The notes under the pieces: generated by a model | The model's database searches: none | What the model was told of the DNA's origin: nothing | The model's input: the letters and a program-made list of their open reading frames with translations, nothing else | Assembly (NCBI RefSeq): GCF_009834025.1 | Contig: NZ_CP047156.1 | Coordinates: 992,001 to 1,056,000 of the forward strand | Reading direction: 5' to 3' | DNA from: Epidermidibacterium keratini | GTDB taxonomy: Bacteria > Actinomycetota > Actinomycetes > Mycobacteriales > Antricoccaceae | DNA length: 64,000 nt | In this document: positions 3,733 through 44,134 of the stretch, piece by piece | Layout of the letters: every line of letters starts with the position of its first letter | How positions within the stretch are numbered: position 1 is the first letter of the stretch | Position numbers and translations under genes: made by a program

Positions 3733-7188
<3,456 letters not shown>

Positions 7189-10263: not shown

Positions 10264-10340
10264 CGTGCAAAATCGCACCGCCGGCCGGGTACCTCGTCGA
10301 GATGAGCCGAGCTACCCCTTATTCGGTGCGATTTTGCACG
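10264..10340. terminator. Bidirectional terminator-like inverted repeat between convergent genes
   Basis: Perfect 17-bp arms at 10264-10280 and 10324-10340 enclose 43 nt that can fold further, with GGGTA-x-CTCG pairing to CGAG-x-TACCC inside. The right arm overlaps the last codons and stop of the CoA-transferase gene; the left arm begins 3 nt after the araC-family stop. There is no long T tract. Placement between convergent genes argues for a two-way terminator. Confidence 0.65.
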
Positions 10341-15010: not shown

Positions 15011-15014
<4 letters not shown>

Positions 15015-16132
15015 GCCTCGAAGTCGACCATGCCGCGCAGGTTCTTGCCGTCCTTGAGGTCGCGGTAGCCCTGCGCGACCTGCTCGATGGAGTACGTCGC
15101 GGTCACCATCTCGTCGAGCTTGAGCTGCCCGCGCTGGTAGAGATCAAGCAGCCGGGGCACGGAGACAAACGGGCTCCAGTTGCCGAAGACGACGCCGCGG
15201 ATGGTCTTCTGCATCATCGAGAGCATCCCGAGGTTGAGCTCGGTCGCCACCGGCTGGAACGTCCCGACGGCAGTGAGCGCAGCGATCCCGCCCTTACGAA
15301 TCGACTCGACCGCGTTGGTCAGGTCTTCGGGTTGCAGGCGGCCGACGGTCACGATCGTGGAGTCGGCGCCCTGCCCGTTGGTAAACGAGCGCGCGAGGTC
15401 GGTCGCCGCCTCGATCGAGGCGACCGCATGCGTCGCGCCGAAATCCCCCGCGAGCTCGCGCTTGAGCTCGAGCGGGTCGACGACGATCACATTGGCCGCA
15501 CCCGCGTGCGCGGCGCCTTGCACTGCGGCGCAGCCGATCCCGCCCATGCCCATCACGATGACGGTGTGGCCGGGGCGCACCTCGGCCGCGTTGATCGCCG
15601 AGCCGTAGCCGGTGCCCACGCCGCATCCCAGCAGGCACAAGTACTTCAGCGGCACATCCTTGGGCACCTTGTACGCCGAACGCGTGCTCACCAGCGTCCG
15701 CTCGCTGAAGGTCGAGATGCCGGTCATCTGCCCGCACGGCTCACCGTCGATCGACAGCCGGTAGCTGTTCGGGTCGTCCGGGCGCCCGCCAGACTCGGCC
15801 TGCGCACCGGTGTCGCACAGCTCCTGTTTGCCCTGCGAGCACCAGAAGCATCGCCCGCACGCCGGCATGAAGGTCATGATGACGTGGTCGCCCACCTCGA
15901 AACCGCTGGTGTGCGGACCTACCTGCTCGACAACGCCGGCCCCCTCGTGCCCGCCGCAGAACGGGATCTTCTTCGGCGTCAGATCGCCCGTCGCGTAATG
16001 ATCATCGGAGTGACACAACCCGCTCGCGACCAGCCGGATCACCAGCTCGTCCTGCCGCGGCTCGTCGAGGGTCACGGTCGCGGTCTGGTACTCCCCCGGC
16101 GAGCTGAACAGTACGGCGGCGGTCGATTCCAT
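15011..16132 (-). CDS. Zinc-dependent alcohol dehydrogenase, NDMA-dependent-type MDR family
   Basis: A 373-residue medium-chain dehydrogenase/reductase oxidising an alcohol with a nicotinamide cofactor. Catalytic zinc ligands are in ASGLCHSDDHYATGD and GGHEGAGVVE; structural zinc cysteines are in CGRCFWCSQGKQELC; the Rossmann motif is GMGGIGCAAVQGA. The insertion-rich region after the structural zinc, with SYRLSIDGEPCGQMTGIST, and the C-terminus GMVDFEA resemble actinobacterial class III-like and NDMA-dependent alcohol dehydrogenases, whose NADH can be tightly bound. The start at 16132 is backed by AGGAGG 6 nt upstream; an in-frame start 30 nt earlier is not. A family-B palindrome lies in the 5' region. 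Substrate not determinable. Confidence 0.9.
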
Positions 16133-16188
16133 GAGTGCCTCCTGGGATGTGACGGGACGCATACCTACATATCACGCCCCGCAGCGCG

Positions 16189-16240
16189 CTCAGAATGGAG
16201 CGTTGGTTGCAATAGACGGCAACTAACGCTCCATTCTGAG
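16189..16240. repeat. Dispersed palindromic repeat, family B, copy 1
   Basis: Arms of 22 nt (16189-16210 and 16219-16240) pair with one G.U and enclose 8 nt. The core ATGGAGCGTTGG...AACGCTCCAT is shared with 19951-19996, including the loop-proximal TAGAC. It lies downstream of the rplL terminator and upstream of the alcohol dehydrogenase start, so it could also block read-through. Confidence 0.75.
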
Positions 16241-16274
16241 ATAGCGACCAGGCGATCACGACGCTGGAGACACG

Positions 16275-16310
16275 AACGGGCCCGTCCGAGATGACTCAGA
16301 CGGGCCCGTT
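16275..16310 (-). terminator. Terminator of the rplJ-rplL operon
   Basis: A perfect 12-bp GC-rich stem, AACGGGCCCGTC pairing with GACGGGCCCGTT (16275-16286 and 16299-16310), with a 12-nt loop, starts 27 nt after the rplL stop on the minus strand. There is no strong U run, as is usual in actinobacteria. Confidence 0.8.
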
Positions 16311-16336
16311 GCGGTGCGGCGTACGCCGCGAAGGTG

Positions 16337-16732
16337 TTACTTGACCGAGACGCTGGCGCCGGCGCCCTCGAGGGCTTCCTTCGCCTTGTCAGCGGCTTCC
16401 TTGTTGACCTTCTCAAGGACGGGCTTCGGGGCGCCGTCGACGAGGTCCTTGGCTTCCTTCAGGCCGAGGGAGGTCAGCGTGCGGACCTCCTTGATGACCT
16501 GGATCTTCTTGTCGCCAGCGGCCTCGAGGATGACGTCGAACTCGTCCTTCTCCTCAGCAGCGGCACCGGCGTCGCCGCCAGCGCCACCGGCAACAGCGGC
16601 ACCGGCAACGGCGACCGGGGCGGCCGCGGTGACGTCGAACTTCTCCTCGAACGCCTTCACGAAGTCCGAGAGCTCGAGCAGGGTCATTCCTTCGAACTGC
16701 TCAAGCAGCTCGTCAGACGAAAGCTTCGCCAT
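16337..16732 (-). CDS. rplL: 50S ribosomal protein L7/L12
   Basis: The multimeric stalk protein that recruits translation GTPases. At 131 residues it has the three expected parts: the N-terminal dimerisation domain ([20 protein letters not shown]), an Ala/Gly-rich hinge at about residues 38-60, and the C-terminal factor-binding domain with [20 protein letters not shown] and [10 protein letters not shown]. It follows rplJ by 87 nt and is cotranscribed with it; a terminator follows directly. Unusually compared with E. coli, but as in some other actinobacteria, rpoB is not the next gene. Confidence 0.98.
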
Positions 16733-16819
16733 GGTGGCATTTCCTTTCTAGATCCGCCGTACGGCGGGAGTTTGTGGTTGGTCCCGGAGTGCGGCAGCAG
16801 GTCCGGGCGCGTGCCGTCT

Positions 16820-17452
16820 CTAGCTCTCGCTGGAGTCGGCGGCGGCTTCGGCGGGCGCCTCTGCTGCAGCGTCGGCCGGGGCCTCCGCGGGTGCTTCGGC
16901 CGTAGCCTCGGCAGGTGCCTCGGCGGCCGGAGCAGCGTCGGCGGGCTTCTTTTCCTTGAGGGCCTCGGCAAGGCGAGCGAACTTCGACAGCGGTGCTGCG
17001 ATCGTTCCCACGGCCTTGGTCAGGTTGCCCTTCATCGCGCCAGCCAGCTTGGCCAGCAGAACCTCGCGAGGCTCCAGGTCGGCGATCTTCTTGACATCCT
17101 CGACGGTGATCGGGTTGCCCTCGAGCACACCGCCCTTGATGACCAGAAGCGGGTTGTCCTTGGCGAAATCCTTCAGGCCCTTAGCGGCCGGGGCGACATC
17201 GCCGCGGATGAACGCGATCGCGGTCGGGCCGGTCAGCAGCTCGTCGAATCCTTCGAGGCCAACTTCGCCGAGAGCGCGCTTGGTGAGGGTATTCTTGACG
17301 ACGGCGTACGTCGTGTCCTCGCCCAGTGCGCGGCGCAGCTGCGTCATCTGCGAGACGCTCAGGCCGCGGTACTCGGTGAGCACAGCCGCGTTGGAGCCGT
17401 TGAACGCATCGACGATCTCCTGCACGGCAGCGGTCTTCTCTGGGTTTGCCAT
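16820..17452 (-). CDS. rplJ: 50S ribosomal protein L10
   Basis: L10 anchors L7/L12 dimers to the 23S rRNA stalk base. The product is 210 residues from the ATG at 17452, backed by GAGGAGGGAC. The N-terminal RNA-binding domain has [16 protein letters not shown] and [14 protein letters not shown]. The C-terminal 45 residues after the stalk-binding helix are an Ala/Pro/Glu-rich tail ([19 protein letters not shown]), longer than the E. coli end but common in actinobacteria. It is preceded by a long leader with L10-leader features and a good promoter, and is cotranscribed with rplL. Confidence 0.97.
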
Positions 17453-17654
17453 GTCCCTCCTCTCTTGTGCATCGGGCTGATCCCCCAGCGCGTGAAACGT
17501 GGGGCCGGCCCGGAAACAAGAGAACCCCGGCGCAGGGCGCACGGGGCAAAGCAGCGTCAGGCTGCGTAGCTTCCGTCCTCCTGCGCGGGCCGCCCTTTCG
17601 GGACCTTCAACCGATCGCAAGCGCTCTCGGTGACCAGCGGTCTTCGGTAGAACC
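17453..17654 (-). promoter_or_regulatory. L10 leader of the rplJL mRNA
   Basis: From the predicted transcription start near 17654 to the rplJ ATG there are about 200 nt of untranslated RNA. Its first part contains ACCGAAGACCGCTGGT, the conserved internal-loop block of ribosomal protein L10 leaders, bound by the L10(L12)4 complex to repress its own translation. Further complementary GC-rich segments follow up to the Shine-Dalgarno. Identity rests on the motif and position; an Rfam L10_leader covariance search would decide. Confidence 0.7.
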
Positions 17655-17660
17655 TGATCC

Positions 17661-17690
17661 ATACTACGCGCCGATTCCGCGCGCCAACAA
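17661..17690 (-). promoter_or_regulatory. Candidate rplJL promoter
   Basis: On the minus strand TTGTTG (17690-17685) is followed after 18 nt by TAGTAT (17666-17661). The 12-mer GGCGCGTAGTAT, spanning the -10 box, recurs in front of rplK. Confidence 0.65.
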
Positions 17691-17789
17691 GGCAGGGGCC
17701 CGTGACCTACCTCGCGCCGTCACCGTTGCCGTCGCAAGCAACGCGCTGGGGCCGGTTCACACCTTTTGAACATAAATGACGTGACTGTC

Positions 17790-17818
17790 TTCACACTCGC
17801 GCTTAACCTCGCTAGGGT
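17790..17818 (+). promoter_or_regulatory. Candidate promoter of the secreted M28 peptidase gene
   Basis: TTCACA (17790-17795), a 17-nt spacer and TAGGGT (17813-17818) make a good housekeeping promoter, with predicted initiation near 17825 and a leader of about 40 nt. It is back to back with the rplJL promoter. Confidence 0.6.
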
Positions 17819-17862
17819 CGGACGCGGTGCTGGAAAACCCAGCGCCCGACAAGGAGAGATAC

Positions 17863-19374
17863 ATGACGAAGCGAAGTGGCACGATCGCGTTGTCGATCGT
17901 CACCGCGTTCGGCGTAGCAGCATCCCTCGCAACGCCAGCAGCCGCAGAGAACCCGAACAACTCCCAGAAGATGCGCAAGGCCGTCACGCTCGAAGCGGTG
18001 ACGGAGCATCTTGAGCAGTTCCAGGCCATTGCCGATGCCAACGACGGCAACCGCGGCGCTGGCACCTCGGGATACGAGGCGTCTGCGCAGTACGTCGAGC
18101 AGACCCTTCAGGCCGCCGGCTATGAGACCGAGCGGCAGTACTTCACCTTTACCTACCAGGAGACACTCGCTGACTCCCTCACCGAGGTCAGCCCGGAGGC
18201 GCGCGATATCGAGCACGTGCCGATGTCGTACTCGCCGGACACTCCTGAGGGCGGGATCACCGCCGACCTCGCCACGCCGACCGTCGCGACCGGCTGTGAC
18301 GCCAGCGAGTACGCCGGCGCCGACGTCGCCGGCAAGATCGTGCTCGTCTCGCGCGGGGTGTGCTCGTTCGGGCAGAAGTCGCTTGCCGCCGCCGAGGCCG
18401 GTGCCGCCGCCGCGGTCATTTACAACAACACCGACGGTGTCCTCAACGGCACCCTCGGCGAGCCCAGCGACGGCTATGTGCCGACCGCTGGCATCACCCA
18501 GGCCGAGGGTCAGACGCTGCTCAGCAAGCTAGCCGCTGGTCCGGTCGTCCTCAACTTCACCCTTCAGCAGCTCATCGAGGAGCGCGAGACCTTCAACATC
18601 CTCGCTGAGACCGCCACCGGTCGCGATGACAATGTCGTCATGCTCGGCGCACACCTCGACGGTGCATACGAGGGCCCCGGCATCAGCGACAACGCCACCG
18701 GTTCGGCCGCGCTCCTTGAGACCGCAGTGCAGTTGGCTAAGGTCAACAAGCTGAACAACAAGGTCCGCTTCGCGTTCTGGGGCGCTGAGGAGCTGGGTCT
18801 GCTCGGAGCGACGCACTACGTCAACGACCTGGTCGAAAACAACCCGACCGAGCTCGACAACATTGCGACCTATCTCAACTTCGACATGGTCGGCTCGCCG
18901 AACTACATCATCGGCGTGTACGACGCTGACCAGTCGACGTACGAGGCGCCGGTTGAGGTGCCCGAGGGCTCGATCGCGACCGAGGCGATCTTCACCGACT
19001 ACTTCGACTCCATCGGTCAGCCGTGGGTCGATACCGAGTTCTCCGGACGCTCGGACTACCAGCCGTTCATCGAGAACGGTGTCGCCTCGTCGGGTCTGTT
19101 CACTGGCGCCGATGACATCAAGACCGAGGAAGAGGTCGCGATGTTCGGTGGTACTGCGGGCATTCAGCACGACCCGAACTACCACACGGCTGCAGATGAC
19201 ATCAACAACTACAGCCCGGAGGCGATGGACATCAACTCCGACGCGATCGCGCACGCCGCGATCACGCTGGCGCAGGACACCTCCTCGATCAACGGGGTGG
19301 AGAGCAACGGCAAGTCCGGCAAGCCCAAGAAGCAGGTCGCCCCGCAGGCGCCTGAGGGTCAGGCCGCGGCCTAA
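17863..19374 (+). CDS. Secreted M28 family zinc aminopeptidase with PA domain
   Basis: A 503-residue exported peptidase. Residues 1-28 are a Sec signal peptide (Lys/Arg start, hydrophobic core SIVTAFGVAASLA, cleavage site after TPAAA). Residues about 140-230 form a protease-associated (PA) domain (GKIVLVSRGVCSFGQKS, AAAAVIYNNTDG). The di-zinc M28 catalytic domain follows: GAHLDGAYEGPGISDNATG (first His/Asp ligands near residue 263), FAFWGAEELGLLGATHYV (catalytic Glu pair), LNFDMVGSPN (Asp) and NYHTAADDINN (final His). The last 25 residues are Lys/Pro/Ala-rich and look disordered. The start ATG has AAGGAG 6 nt upstream. It and the SRPBCC gene interrupt the usual rplA-rplJ neighbourhood. Likely role: releasing amino acids from extracellular peptides. 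Confidence 0.93.
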   Translation: MTKRSGTIALSIVTAFGVAASLATPAAAENPNNSQKMRKAVTLEAVTEHLEQFQAIADANDGNRGAGTSGYEASAQYVEQTLQAAGYETERQYFTFTYQETLADSLTEVSPEARDIEHVPMSYSPDTPEGGITADLATPTVATGCDASEYAGADVAGKIVLVSRGVCSFGQKSLAAAEAGAAAAVIYNNTDGVLNGTLGEPSDGYVPTAGITQAEGQTLLSKLAAGPVVLNFTLQQLIEERETFNILAETATGRDDNVVMLGAHLDGAYEGPGISDNATGSAALLETAVQLAKVNKLNNKVRFAFWGAEELGLLGATHYVNDLVENNPTELDNIATYLNFDMVGSPNYIIGVYDADQSTYEAPVEVPEGSIATEAIFTDYFDSIGQPWVDTEFSGRSDYQPFIENGVASSGLFTGADDIKTEEEVAMFGGTAGIQHDPNYHTAADDINNYSPEAMDINSDAIAHAAITLAQDTSSINGVESNGKSGKPKKQVAPQAPEGQAAA

Positions 19375-19388
19375 CCGCTAGTACGACG

Positions 19389-19422
19389 AAGCGGCCGGTG
19401 TCTCTGGAGACACCGGCCGCTT
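19389..19422 (+). terminator. Terminator of the M28 peptidase gene
   Basis: A perfect 16-bp stem (19389-19404 with 19407-19422), effectively with a 4-nt loop, beginning AAGCGGCCGG and followed by TTGTATTGT. It starts 14 nt after the stop codon. Strong rho-independent type. Confidence 0.88.
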
Positions 19423-19432
19423 TGTATTGTCA

Positions 19433-19460
19433 GCCATGGTTACTGACGAGTAACCATGGC
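19433..19460 (+). promoter_or_regulatory. Palindromic operator candidate upstream of the SRPBCC gene
   Basis: Perfect 12-bp arms GCCATGGTTACT and AGTAACCATGGC around GACG. The core TTACT-n4-AGTAA has the form of many TetR-family operators. It ends 11 nt before the ATG at 19472, with an imperfect -10 (CAGACT, 19461-19466 region) between, so a bound protein would cover the promoter. No TetR gene is present nearby. Function inferred. Confidence 0.5.
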
Positions 19461-19471
19461 AGACTCGGTGC

Positions 19472-19936
19472 ATGACCAACCTCTATGACCCGATCGAGGC
19501 GACCATCGAGATCGCCGCCCCCCAGGATCAAGTCTGGCGAGTCGTCTCCAACCTGCGCGCGATGCCCCAGTGGAGTCCGCAGGTCGCTAAGACCTTCATC
19601 CGCGGGCCGATCCGCCCCGGCGCGAAGATGATCAATATCAACCGCGAGGGCCCGAAGATCTGGCCGACGACTGCCAAGGTGACCCGTTTTGAGCCGCGGC
19701 GCGATGTCGCCTTCCGCGTCAAGGAGAACTGGGCCGAGTGGAGCTTCACCCTCGAACCGACCGCCGACGGGTCAGGCACGAAGGTGACGCATCGCCGCGA
19801 GACCCCGAAGGGCACGACGAAGCTGTCCCAGCGCCTGGTCGATCGGTTCTTCGGCGGCGCGGAGAAGTTCCGCGGCCACCTCGAGAGCGGGATGAACCAG
19901 ACGCTGCAGAAGATGAAGACCTCGATCGAGCGGTAA
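19472..19936 (+). CDS. SRPBCC (polyketide cyclase/START-like) family protein
   Basis: A 154-residue protein with the START-like fold, typically binding a hydrophobic ligand in a deep cavity. The beginning, MTNLYDPIEATIEIAAPQDQ followed by VWRVVSNLRAMPQWSPQV, is the standard opening of the polyketide_cyc2 group, and WSFTLEPTADGSGTKVTHRR is the central strand pair. The C-terminal helix ends KMKTSIER. No active-site residues point to a specific enzyme. No Shine-Dalgarno precedes the ATG. A palindromic operator candidate sits just upstream and a 22-bp family-B palindrome just downstream. It stands alone on the plus strand between the peptidase gene and the rplKA operon. Confidence 0.85.
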   Translation: MTNLYDPIEATIEIAAPQDQVWRVVSNLRAMPQWSPQVAKTFIRGPIRPGAKMININREGPKIWPTTAKVTRFEPRRDVAFRVKENWAEWSFTLEPTADGSGTKVTHRRETPKGTTKLSQRLVDRFFGGAEKFRGHLESGMNQTLQKMKTSIER

Positions 19937-19950
19937 CTGGCCCGAAAACC

Positions 19951-19996
19951 GAAATGGAGCGTTGGTCGCAGTAGACTGCGACCAACGCTCCATTTC
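19951..19996. repeat. Dispersed palindromic repeat, family B, copy 2 (perfect); likely two-way terminator
   Basis: Perfect 22-bp arms (19951-19972 and 19975-19996) beginning GAAATGGAGCGTTGGTCGCA, with only 2 nt between. It lies between the convergent SRPBCC gene (stop 19936) and rplA (stop 20023). It shares its core with 16189-16240, 3.7 kb away. Confidence 0.8.
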
Positions 19997-20022
19997 GAAG
20001 CGGCGTACGAGGGTACGGCCTA

Positions 20023-20736
20023 CTAGGCGACCGGATCCTCGGTGAGGTTGCGGGTGCGCCCACCGTCCACGCGGATGCCCGGGCCCATCGTGGTCGACAT
20101 CGCGATCTTCTTGATGTAGCGACCCTTGGCAGCCGACGGCTTCAGACGCAGGACCTCATCGAGTACGGCGCCGTAGTTCTCGACCAGCTGCTTCTGATCG
20201 AAGCTCGCCTTGCCGATGACCAGGTGCAGGTTGGCCGCCTTGTCGATGCGGAAGTTGACCTTGCCGCCCTTGATGTCGGCGACGGCCTTCGCGACGTCGG
20301 TGGTGACGGTGCCGGTCTTCGGGTTCGGCATCAGACCACGCGGGCCAAGGACACGCGCGACCCGGCCGACCTTGGCCATCTGGTCGGGCGTGGCGATGGC
20401 GGCGTCGAAGTCCAGGAACCCGCCGTTGATCTGCTCGATGAGCTCGTCCGAGCCGACGACGTCGGCGCCGGCGGCCTCAGCCTCAGCGGCCTTCTCGCCG
20501 ACGGCGAACACGATGACGCGGGCGGTCTTGCCGGTGCCGTGCGGCAGGTTGACCGTTCCGCGGACCATCTGGTCGGCCTTCCGAGGGTCGACGCCGAGGA
20601 CCATGGCGACTTCGACCGTCGGGTCGTACTTCGTCGATGCGGTCTCCTTGGCCAGACCCGCCGCCTCCAGCGGGCTGTAGAGCTTGTCGCGATCGATCTT
20701 CTCCGCTGCTTCGCGGTATGCCTTGCTGCGCTTCAT
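20023..20736 (-). CDS. rplA: 50S ribosomal protein L1
   Basis: A 237-residue L1, which forms the E-site stalk and in many bacteria represses translation of its own operon. Typical blocks are [20 protein letters not shown] at the start, [20 protein letters not shown], the L1 signature region [20 protein letters not shown], and [20 protein letters not shown]. The ATG at 20736 has GGGGAG upstream; the longer open frame is not used because it would run through rplK. It follows rplK by 110 nt holding three palindromes. A family-B palindrome 27 nt downstream is the probable terminator. Confidence 0.97.
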
Positions 20737-20769
20737 GTGCTTCTCCCCTGTGGTGAGTGTGTGGTTGGC

Positions 20770-27473: not shown

Positions 27474-27944
27474 ATGGACCCGACGCCAGCTACGGCGCGC
27501 TCGGCCGCCCAGATTCTGAGCGCCGGCTGCGCTGTCCTCGCACTCATCACGCTCGGCCTGCCGTTCGCGGAGAAGTACTTCTGGCTCGATACGCACAAGT
27601 GGATGGAGACGTTCACCGGCTTCACGATCGGCTCGGCGAGCCGGATGGACGGCCACCGGCCGGTCCCAGTCGCGGTGGCCGTCATCGTGATCGCCGGCAC
27701 GGTGCTGCTCGCCGCACTGGCCTGGGCCGCTGTTGAGACCGACCGGTCTGGGATTAGTGCCACGGCGGCGGTGCTCGCCGTAGCGCTCGTGTTTTTCAGC
27801 ATGCCTGCGCTCAGCGGAATCGACGGCGAGTTCGGCGCGGGACACGACCAGTTCAGCGCGTTTGGGATCGGCCTCTGGCGGCTCATGCTCGTGGCATGCG
27901 GCGTACTCGCGCTCCGCGCCTGTCCCCGTCCCCGGGACTGGTAA
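27474..27944 (+). CDS. Hypothetical four-helix membrane protein
   Basis: A 156-residue protein that I do not recognise. Four hydrophobic segments are visible: about residues 12-31 (ILSAGCAVLALITLGLPF), 66-88 (VAVAVIVIAGTVLLAALAWA), 95-113 and 130-147. The loop between helices 1 and 2 is hydrophilic (WLDTHKWMETFTGFTIGS) and conserved-looking. There is no clear Shine-Dalgarno. It lies between rmlA and sdhC on the same strand but is separated from sdhC by about 110 nt with a palindrome, so probably not part of the sdh operon. Confidence 0.6.
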   Translation: MDPTPATARSAAQILSAGCAVLALITLGLPFAEKYFWLDTHKWMETFTGFTIGSASRMDGHRPVPVAVAVIVIAGTVLLAALAWAAVETDRSGISATAAVLAVALVFFSMPALSGIDGEFGAGHDQFSAFGIGLWRLMLVACGVLALRACPRPRDW

Positions 27945-28790: not shown

Positions 28791-30931
<2,141 letters not shown>

Positions 30932-31663: not shown

Positions 31664-31686
31664 GCTCGCCGCGCCACGCTGACCCA

Positions 31687-31740
31687 CTTAGTAAAGGCCA
31701 CCCCGGTTGTCACCGGGGTGGCCTTTACTATCCGGGTCAG
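31687..31740. repeat. Dispersed palindromic repeat, family A, copy 2; acts as two-way terminator
   Basis: A perfect 19-bp stem, TAGTAAAGGCCACCCCGGT with its complement (31689-31707 and 31712-31730), loop TGTC, lies between convergent sdhB (stop 31663) and glnD (stop 31779). Arms and the outside flank match the degenerate copy at 7567-7620 in inverted orientation. It should terminate both operons. Confidence 0.85.
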
Positions 31741-31778: not shown

Positions 31779-35771
<3,993 letters not shown>

Positions 35772-44075: not shown

Positions 44076-44134
44076 ACGCGCGGTGGGTTCTGCACCGGTA
44101 ATCGCCAGATAGCGGTGCAGAACCCACCGCGCGT
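44076..44134. terminator. Two-way terminator-like inverted repeat between convergent operons
   Basis: Perfect 22-bp arms (44076-44097 and 44113-44134) beginning ACGCGCGGTGGGTTCTGCAC, with a 15-nt loop. It starts 20 nt after the transporter operon and ends 26 nt before the prenyl synthase stop. No T tract. The length of the perfect stem is unusual for a plain terminator. Confidence 0.75.

Follow-up and report, generated by a model that had tools for sequence, protein, structure and literature searches.

Two long palindromes of nearly the same sequence lie within 64 kb of the chromosome of Epidermidibacterium keratini (the window, by which the whole 64,000-nucleotide stretch that was analysed is meant), and the question they raise is whether such repeats are ordinary transcription stop signals, sites that are read by a protein or a single sequence that has been copied around the genome. 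An earlier note, made from the sequence alone, had described both copies and had placed each of them between transcription units. Both are present, the second being one base longer at each end than described, with c04 lying between convergent genes and c03 having the 3' end of rplL on one side and an alcohol dehydrogenase start on the other. The features concerned are these:

15011 to 16162, minus strand: alcohol dehydrogenase gene (ADH_N, ADH_zinc_N), start 28 bp from the core of c03
16189 to 16240, no strand: first palindrome copy (c03), CTCAGA-ATGGAGCGTTGGTTGC / GCAACTAACGCTCCAT-TCTGAG, arms of 22 nt
16275 to 16310, minus strand: separate hairpin AACGGGCCCGTCCGAG/CTCAGACGGGCCCGTT, between rplL and c03
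16337 to 16732, minus strand: rplL (ribosomal protein L7/L12), stop 98 bp from the core of c03
19472 to 19936, plus strand: gene for a Polyketide_cyc2 (SRPBCC-type) protein, stop 13 bp before c04
19950 to 19997, no strand: second palindrome copy (c04), perfect 23-nt arms, outer stem CGAA/TTCG, inner stem TCGC/GCGA
20023 to 20745, minus strand: rplA (L1), convergent, stop 25 bp past c04; its start is approximate and its identity was read by eye off the translation

The arms of c03 are 95% complementary over 22 nt with a spacer of 8 nt, those of c04 are 100% complementary over 23 nt with a spacer of 2 nt, and the two copies do share ATGGAGCGTTGG...TAGAC...AACGCTCCAT as had been proposed. The compensating changes in the arms that the earlier note had pointed to are also real, with TTGC/GCAA in the inner stem of c03 against TCGC/GCGA in c04 and CAGA/TCTG in the outer stem against CGAA/TTCG. 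In c03 the pairing also departs without compensation, at one stem pair (G-T when read on the plus strand) and at two positions by the loop, which are mispaired. Folded as RNA the copies reach z scores of -7.7 (c03) and -10.4 (c04), with none of 200 dinucleotide shuffles folding equally well. Searched for on its own, and with up to 3 mismatches allowed, a 13-nt arm gives 13 matches in the window where 13.7 would be expected, which is no enrichment, and those four that match with 0-1 mismatch belong to c03 and c04 as their arms. The separate hairpin at 16275-16310 is likely to be the primary terminator of rplL. Long inverted repeats of other sequence are also found in the window at 10264-10340 and 31679-31740, with arms of 33 and 29 nt.

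Across the chromosome of 4,018,808 bases the family numbers 12 copies when a 36-nt pattern is searched with up to 3 mismatches and is found at 10 places with the strict pattern, the reversed control giving 0 in both cases. A local duplication, which the earlier note had set against its own reading should only two copies be found, is thus ruled out by 12 scattered copies with unrelated flanks. All 19 exact genome matches of the 12-nt arm word ATGGAGCGTTGG fall inside the 12 palindromes, and a shorter 10-nt arm word gave one solitary match in a 464-kb sample. In Neisseria and Haemophilus paired DNA uptake sequences serve as terminators, and such uptake words are numerous with many of them single. 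What the present family would have in common with them is a word repeated in inverted pairs and serving as a terminator too, but as no exact match of the 12-nt arm is solitary the idea of an uptake sequence was rejected. A covariance model built from the 12 copies recovers the same 12 and three weaker, diverged hairpins (at 1874274, 3901997 and 3967555; best E values 4e-9, 3e-5 and 5e-5) that are excluded from every count of 12 given here, two of the three ending in T-runs and thus possibly being ordinary terminators.

Beyond this genome the sequence is scarce. The exact gapped pattern has no match in a collection of genome contigs, from which the genome itself was possibly excluded, the family pattern has none in a collection of viral contigs, and with up to 3 mismatches it has none in the four other genomes of the bacterial family, one of which (G001) has a single weak covariance-model hairpin (E 5e-5) of other sequence. 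The covariance model matched 8 of 298 genomes drawn from the order, the source genome among the 8; the sampled order is presumably that called Mycobacteriales by GTDB, and NCBI taxonomy places Antricoccaceae in Geodermatophilales. A search of Rfam 15 with positions 15800-20400 of the window gave, at E values of up to 1, three matches that were all far from the gathering score, and in the literature searched, mostly without subscription journals, no description was found of these palindrome families or sequences at actinobacterial gene ends. When compared with phages, c04 had no match and c06 only partial matches to Pseudomonas phages (E ~0.4), which were taken as chance, as were the partial matches to Borrelia plasmids (E ~0.3); the partial phage and plasmid matches listed lie within coding genes or a hypothetical gene. 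The upper stem CGTTGGTTGC occurs in 45 stretches from other phyla in the genome-contig collection, these being matches selected by that very word.

Nearly all of the copies are placed at gene ends, with the following contexts:

c01: behind qcrB (cytochrome b)
c02: between a DUF883-type gene and an ACT-domain gene
c03: between rplL and the alcohol dehydrogenase gene
c04: between the Polyketide_cyc2 gene and rplA
c05: between an rRNA adenine dimethylase-like gene and a methyltransferase gene
c06: between an enoyl-CoA hydratase gene and an MT0933-type antitoxin gene
c07: behind a MerR gene (HspR by eye)
c08: behind secA
c09: behind a 306-aa gene without Pfam match
c10: behind an MFS gene
c11: behind a lipoate ligase gene
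c12: between an 81-aa ORF and a convergent Excalibur-like gene (by eye)

In these contexts, which were established by hand with Pfam, a facing stop codon is found no more than 30 nt away from 11 of the 12 copies, the sole exception being c03, which comes 98 bp after the stop of rplL and beyond the hairpin at 16275-16310. For the background, which rests on script gene calls, 1.2% of 463,013 placements qualify in the 464 kb sampled (P 6e-21), or 11.7% when only intergenic placements are taken (P 6e-10); these calls, made from GC by codon position, contain errors outside the hand-checked neighbours. Five of the copies are between convergent genes (P 0.055) and none between divergent genes (P 0.016). 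An ORF of 324 aa on the plus strand at c11, which has no Pfam match and likewise ends 9 nt before the palindrome, was treated as a non-gene. Two copies 1 kb apart (3240120-3241173; L008, L009) flank the 306-aa gene, which sits between secA and a Bmp-type gene; other genes stand behind secA in relatives and the 306-aa gene could be an inserted cassette.

The usual unit is 48 nt, CAGAATGGAGCGTTGGTTGCAG-TCTW-CTGCAACCAACGCTCCATTCTG or its reverse complement, and in three copies the symmetry extends for 1-2 further pairs; the repeat as a whole is 48-52 bp long. The 48-nt cores of the 12 copies are 73-100% identical (mean 88%) and the 60-nt flanks have a mean identity of 28% and a maximum of 52%, with a few bases beyond the core common to c01 and c02 and to c08 and c09. 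Two copies, c06 (2140083) and c08 (3240120), are identical and in opposite orientation.

Within the stem 95.1% of 264 cells (22 pairs in 12 copies) are standard pairs, a percentage that 13 of 500 shuffles reach, and sliding the register abolishes the pairing. Half of the pairs (11/22) are invariant and 3/22 have changes on both sides. The number of cells with changes on both sides (n=6) and the covariation score are each reached by 3/500 shuffles, but the number of pairs with changes on both sides (132/500) and of pair types (452/500) are not unusual; the compensating changes across copies are real but few. The earlier note took such changes to mean that base pairing is under selection. That the pairing has been kept across copies stands, yet palindromes can also stay symmetrical through hairpin-directed correction of DNA, so that selection is not the sole reading. 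If pairing mattered at the level of RNA, then mispairs should be G-U and not A-C on the transcribed strand. In the six copies transcribed in one direction there are 8 of the former and 2 of the latter (p=0.055), a difference to which c07 contributes through a shift by one base. For a sister family, described below, 14 copies with one transcribed direction give 5 against 6, without bias. The first of these results is only suggestive and the second negative, and no claim is therefore made for selection acting on RNA.

The loop is more informative, being the part that lies outside the pairing in the RNA model. Its 4 nt begin with TCT in 10 of the 12 copies, in either orientation, and in 5000 random sets of loops none reached 10 such loops, the best having 6. 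Because the loop is shared and similarity is lost outside the 48-52 bp, common descent by copying in both orientations is indicated, and the family looks like one sequence that has been copied around the genome and not a set of independently evolved stop signals. A factor that reads the loop would also fit. It is virtually impossible that unrelated GC-rich terminators came to resemble one another by chance, an idea that the many unrelated long hairpins at gene ends in this genome might suggest and which is already refuted by 12 copies of fixed length with a control of 0 and by the sharing of an unpaired loop.

The earlier note took the conserved primary sequence to suggest a recognised element. 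The primary sequence is conserved, but copying explains this at least as well as recognition, because the unpaired loop is shared too. The form of recognition that was considered is a putative site for a dimeric DNA-binding or nucleoid protein on GGAGCGTTGG...CCAACGCTCC, which would block polymerase or organise the chromosome in the manner of phage stoperators. In favour of such a site the GGAGCGTTGG arms are nearly invariant across the 12 copies, and a precedent may be seen in phage phiC31 (L250), where dispersed palindromes that share TACTCACGTGAGTA (for example at 27527-27574, 29538-29573, 32532-32571 and 34772-34807) form a family centred on CCTACTCACGTGAGTAGG; these we take to be phage repressor sites, or stoperator-like. 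They resemble the present family in being a palindromic sequence family spread through the replicon of an actinobacterial phage, but differ in having an unrelated sequence, a shorter conserved core and, presumably, a phage repressor as their reader. Such a protein site is quite unlikely here, as the outer and inner stem pairs co-vary in some copies, which a reader of half-sites would not need, the 12-nt arm matches are all in palindromes (even if the 10-nt word has its one solitary match), and the copies are found at stops with none divergent.

How well the palindromes would serve as terminators is a further matter. As G+C-rich hairpins shortly past a stop (11/12) they have the form by which intrinsic terminators are known, and when both strands of each of the 12 copies are folded the predicted energies range from -29.3 to -42.0 kcal/mol. 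A U-tract after the stem is absent, there being 1-4 T in the next 10 nt on either strand, and a terminator scan flagged neither of the two copies in the window. Canonical terminators have more than this, but the 3-4 U given for Streptomyces come close, in a comparison of species where the hairpins of Streptomyces terminators are the longest and most stable and have the fewest U (PMC12207403). For this group of bacteria that comparison weakens the argument, made in the earlier note, that the stems are longer than termination needs. In mycobacteria the action of U-less hairpins as terminators is disputed (PMC5335608). The palindromes are like the long-stem, U-poor 'I-shaped' terminators of actinobacteria (PMC12207403, PMC5335608) in being stable hairpins with few U just past a stop. 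Those need no common sequence, whereas here a dozen unrelated genes have nearly the same one, in a putative terminator role.

On balance the family is probably a copied, REPIN-like repeat which acts as a long-stem, U-poor, two-way 3'-end hairpin, where both termination (or protection) and spread by copying are what we infer. A dispersed and nearly symmetrical repeat of 48-52 bp would, when transcribed from either side, give a hairpin of about 22 bp. This hairpin would most likely end transcription, or else fix or protect the 3' end of the transcript, for a gene or a convergent pair, much as has been reported of long-stemmed hairpins with few U in high-GC Actinobacteria. The sequence would have been copied from place to place within the lineage, in both orientations, and its copies would take over 3' ends that in relatives can be served by unrelated hairpins.

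The spacers at the corresponding genes of four relatives bear on this last step. Behind qcrB three of them (G001, G002 and G003) each have a different, unrelated hairpin 9-18 nt past the stop, G004 has no hairpin, and a DsbA-like gene (by eye) is still downstream in the relatives. That at this one clean spacer the hairpin was kept and its sequence was not fits a take-over by a spreading element. The evidence from the secA spacer is mixed, as two of the four relatives (G003 and G004) have other, shorter hairpins, whereas G001 lacks one and G002 has an overlapping next gene. The hspR spacer is negative, a comparable hairpin being present in none of the four relatives, which have short ones only, farther off or inside called genes, and there the downstream genes differ among relatives.

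The same spacers could be read in another way, in that ordinary terminators at different genes may have been homogenised by gene conversion between similar hairpins, with no mobile element involved. The placement of copies at gene ends, the presence in relatives of differing hairpins at that position and the failure to find a Y1 transposase (below) are all in keeping with this. It would nevertheless require similar seeds at unrelated genes and a short conversion tract, since similarity stops at 48-52 bp (save for the few bases shared by c01 and c02 and by c08 and c09) with unrelated flanks, and the pattern is in none of the four other genomes of the family, so that gene conversion is rather unlikely.

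The copied, REPIN-like repeat that we favour is itself to be compared with REPINs, which have inverted conserved arms, fixed spacing and compensatory changes (Bertels and Rainey 2011, PMC3116915) and are reported there as randomly distributed in extragenic space. The likeness is in dispersed extragenic palindromes, conserved inverted arms, fixed spacing, compensating changes and several families per genome, and as a dispersed extragenic palindromic repeat with hairpin-forming inverted arms the family is a REP in form. The differences are that the present unit is 48-52 bp and palindromic throughout, has 12 copies, is found at stops and has no solitary 12-nt arm, the 19 exact genome-wide matches including none of the decayed single arms known as REP singlets. 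Furthermore, the RAYT-type transposase Y1_Tnp (PF01797) was absent from the genome at E<=0.001 in a search restricted to the Y1 class, which matched in 5 of 14 control genomes. Mobilisation of the RAYT/IS200 type was therefore rejected and, because this transposase, which is among the defining parts of REPINs, was not found, the family is not filed as REPIN.

The genome does hold a larger sister family, family A, with the pattern GCGGTGGAA-33-TTCCACCGC and 39 copies of a constant 51 nt (control 0), an example being L134:1501-1551. Its upper stem falls into subfamilies such as CGGACACCCTA and CTSTARCGCTA. Script gene calls put a facing stop no more than 60 nt away from 29 of the 39, with 18 convergent, 5 divergent and 2 called inside genes. 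A palindrome of the type ACGCGCGGTGGGTT...AACCCACCGCGCGT, whose foot resembles that of family A, occurs at 44076-44134 of the window and at L123:12235-12293, and a pair of related palindromes, TGCGGCAGGTTTGTGCTG..., lies ~1 kb apart at L115:4928-4980 and 6059-6117.

A family of this size at a constant length, taken with the layout of inverted conserved arms, fixed spacing and compensatory changes seen in REPINs (PMC3116915), might suggest a purely selfish REPIN- or MITE-like hairpin, without function and tolerated at 3' ends as the least harmful place. This is highly unlikely for the 12 copies, as the Y1 transposase was not found and placement at stops differs from the random extragenic placement reported for REPINs.

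Palindrome families are not confined to this genome, as in a survey of hairpins in three further genomes of the order (400 kb each) two were found to carry families of their own. G046 (L169-L188) has 9 related hairpins in its 400 kb, a family around GCCCCCAAGGGCACTTTGGTTGCACTCAATGCAACCAAAGTGCCCTTGGGGGC with several between convergent genes, and G001 has two pairs besides 3 related hairpins, which belong to a loose cluster of 4. No clear family was found in the 400 kb of G005, which has one pair and two look-alikes that the script did not join. It may be, as a tentative and rather doubtful extension, that genomes of the order carry lineage-specific families of near-perfect palindromes which replicate by overwriting terminators, move without RAYT and persist by taking over the job of the terminator they replace, and so would be 'terminator-mimicking' mobile hairpins. 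If terminators do spread as a copied family, then gene ends would evolve by take-over of sequence and not by local mutation alone, and a copying route other than a palindrome-linked Y1 transposase must exist. With families of 12 and 39 copies in one genome, both the role in termination and the spread are directly testable. A recurrent palindrome of a further kind, TATCGTTGGTTGCGGGGGC..GCAACCAACGATA, is seen in several alphaproteobacteria (L084, L091, L107, L110 and others).
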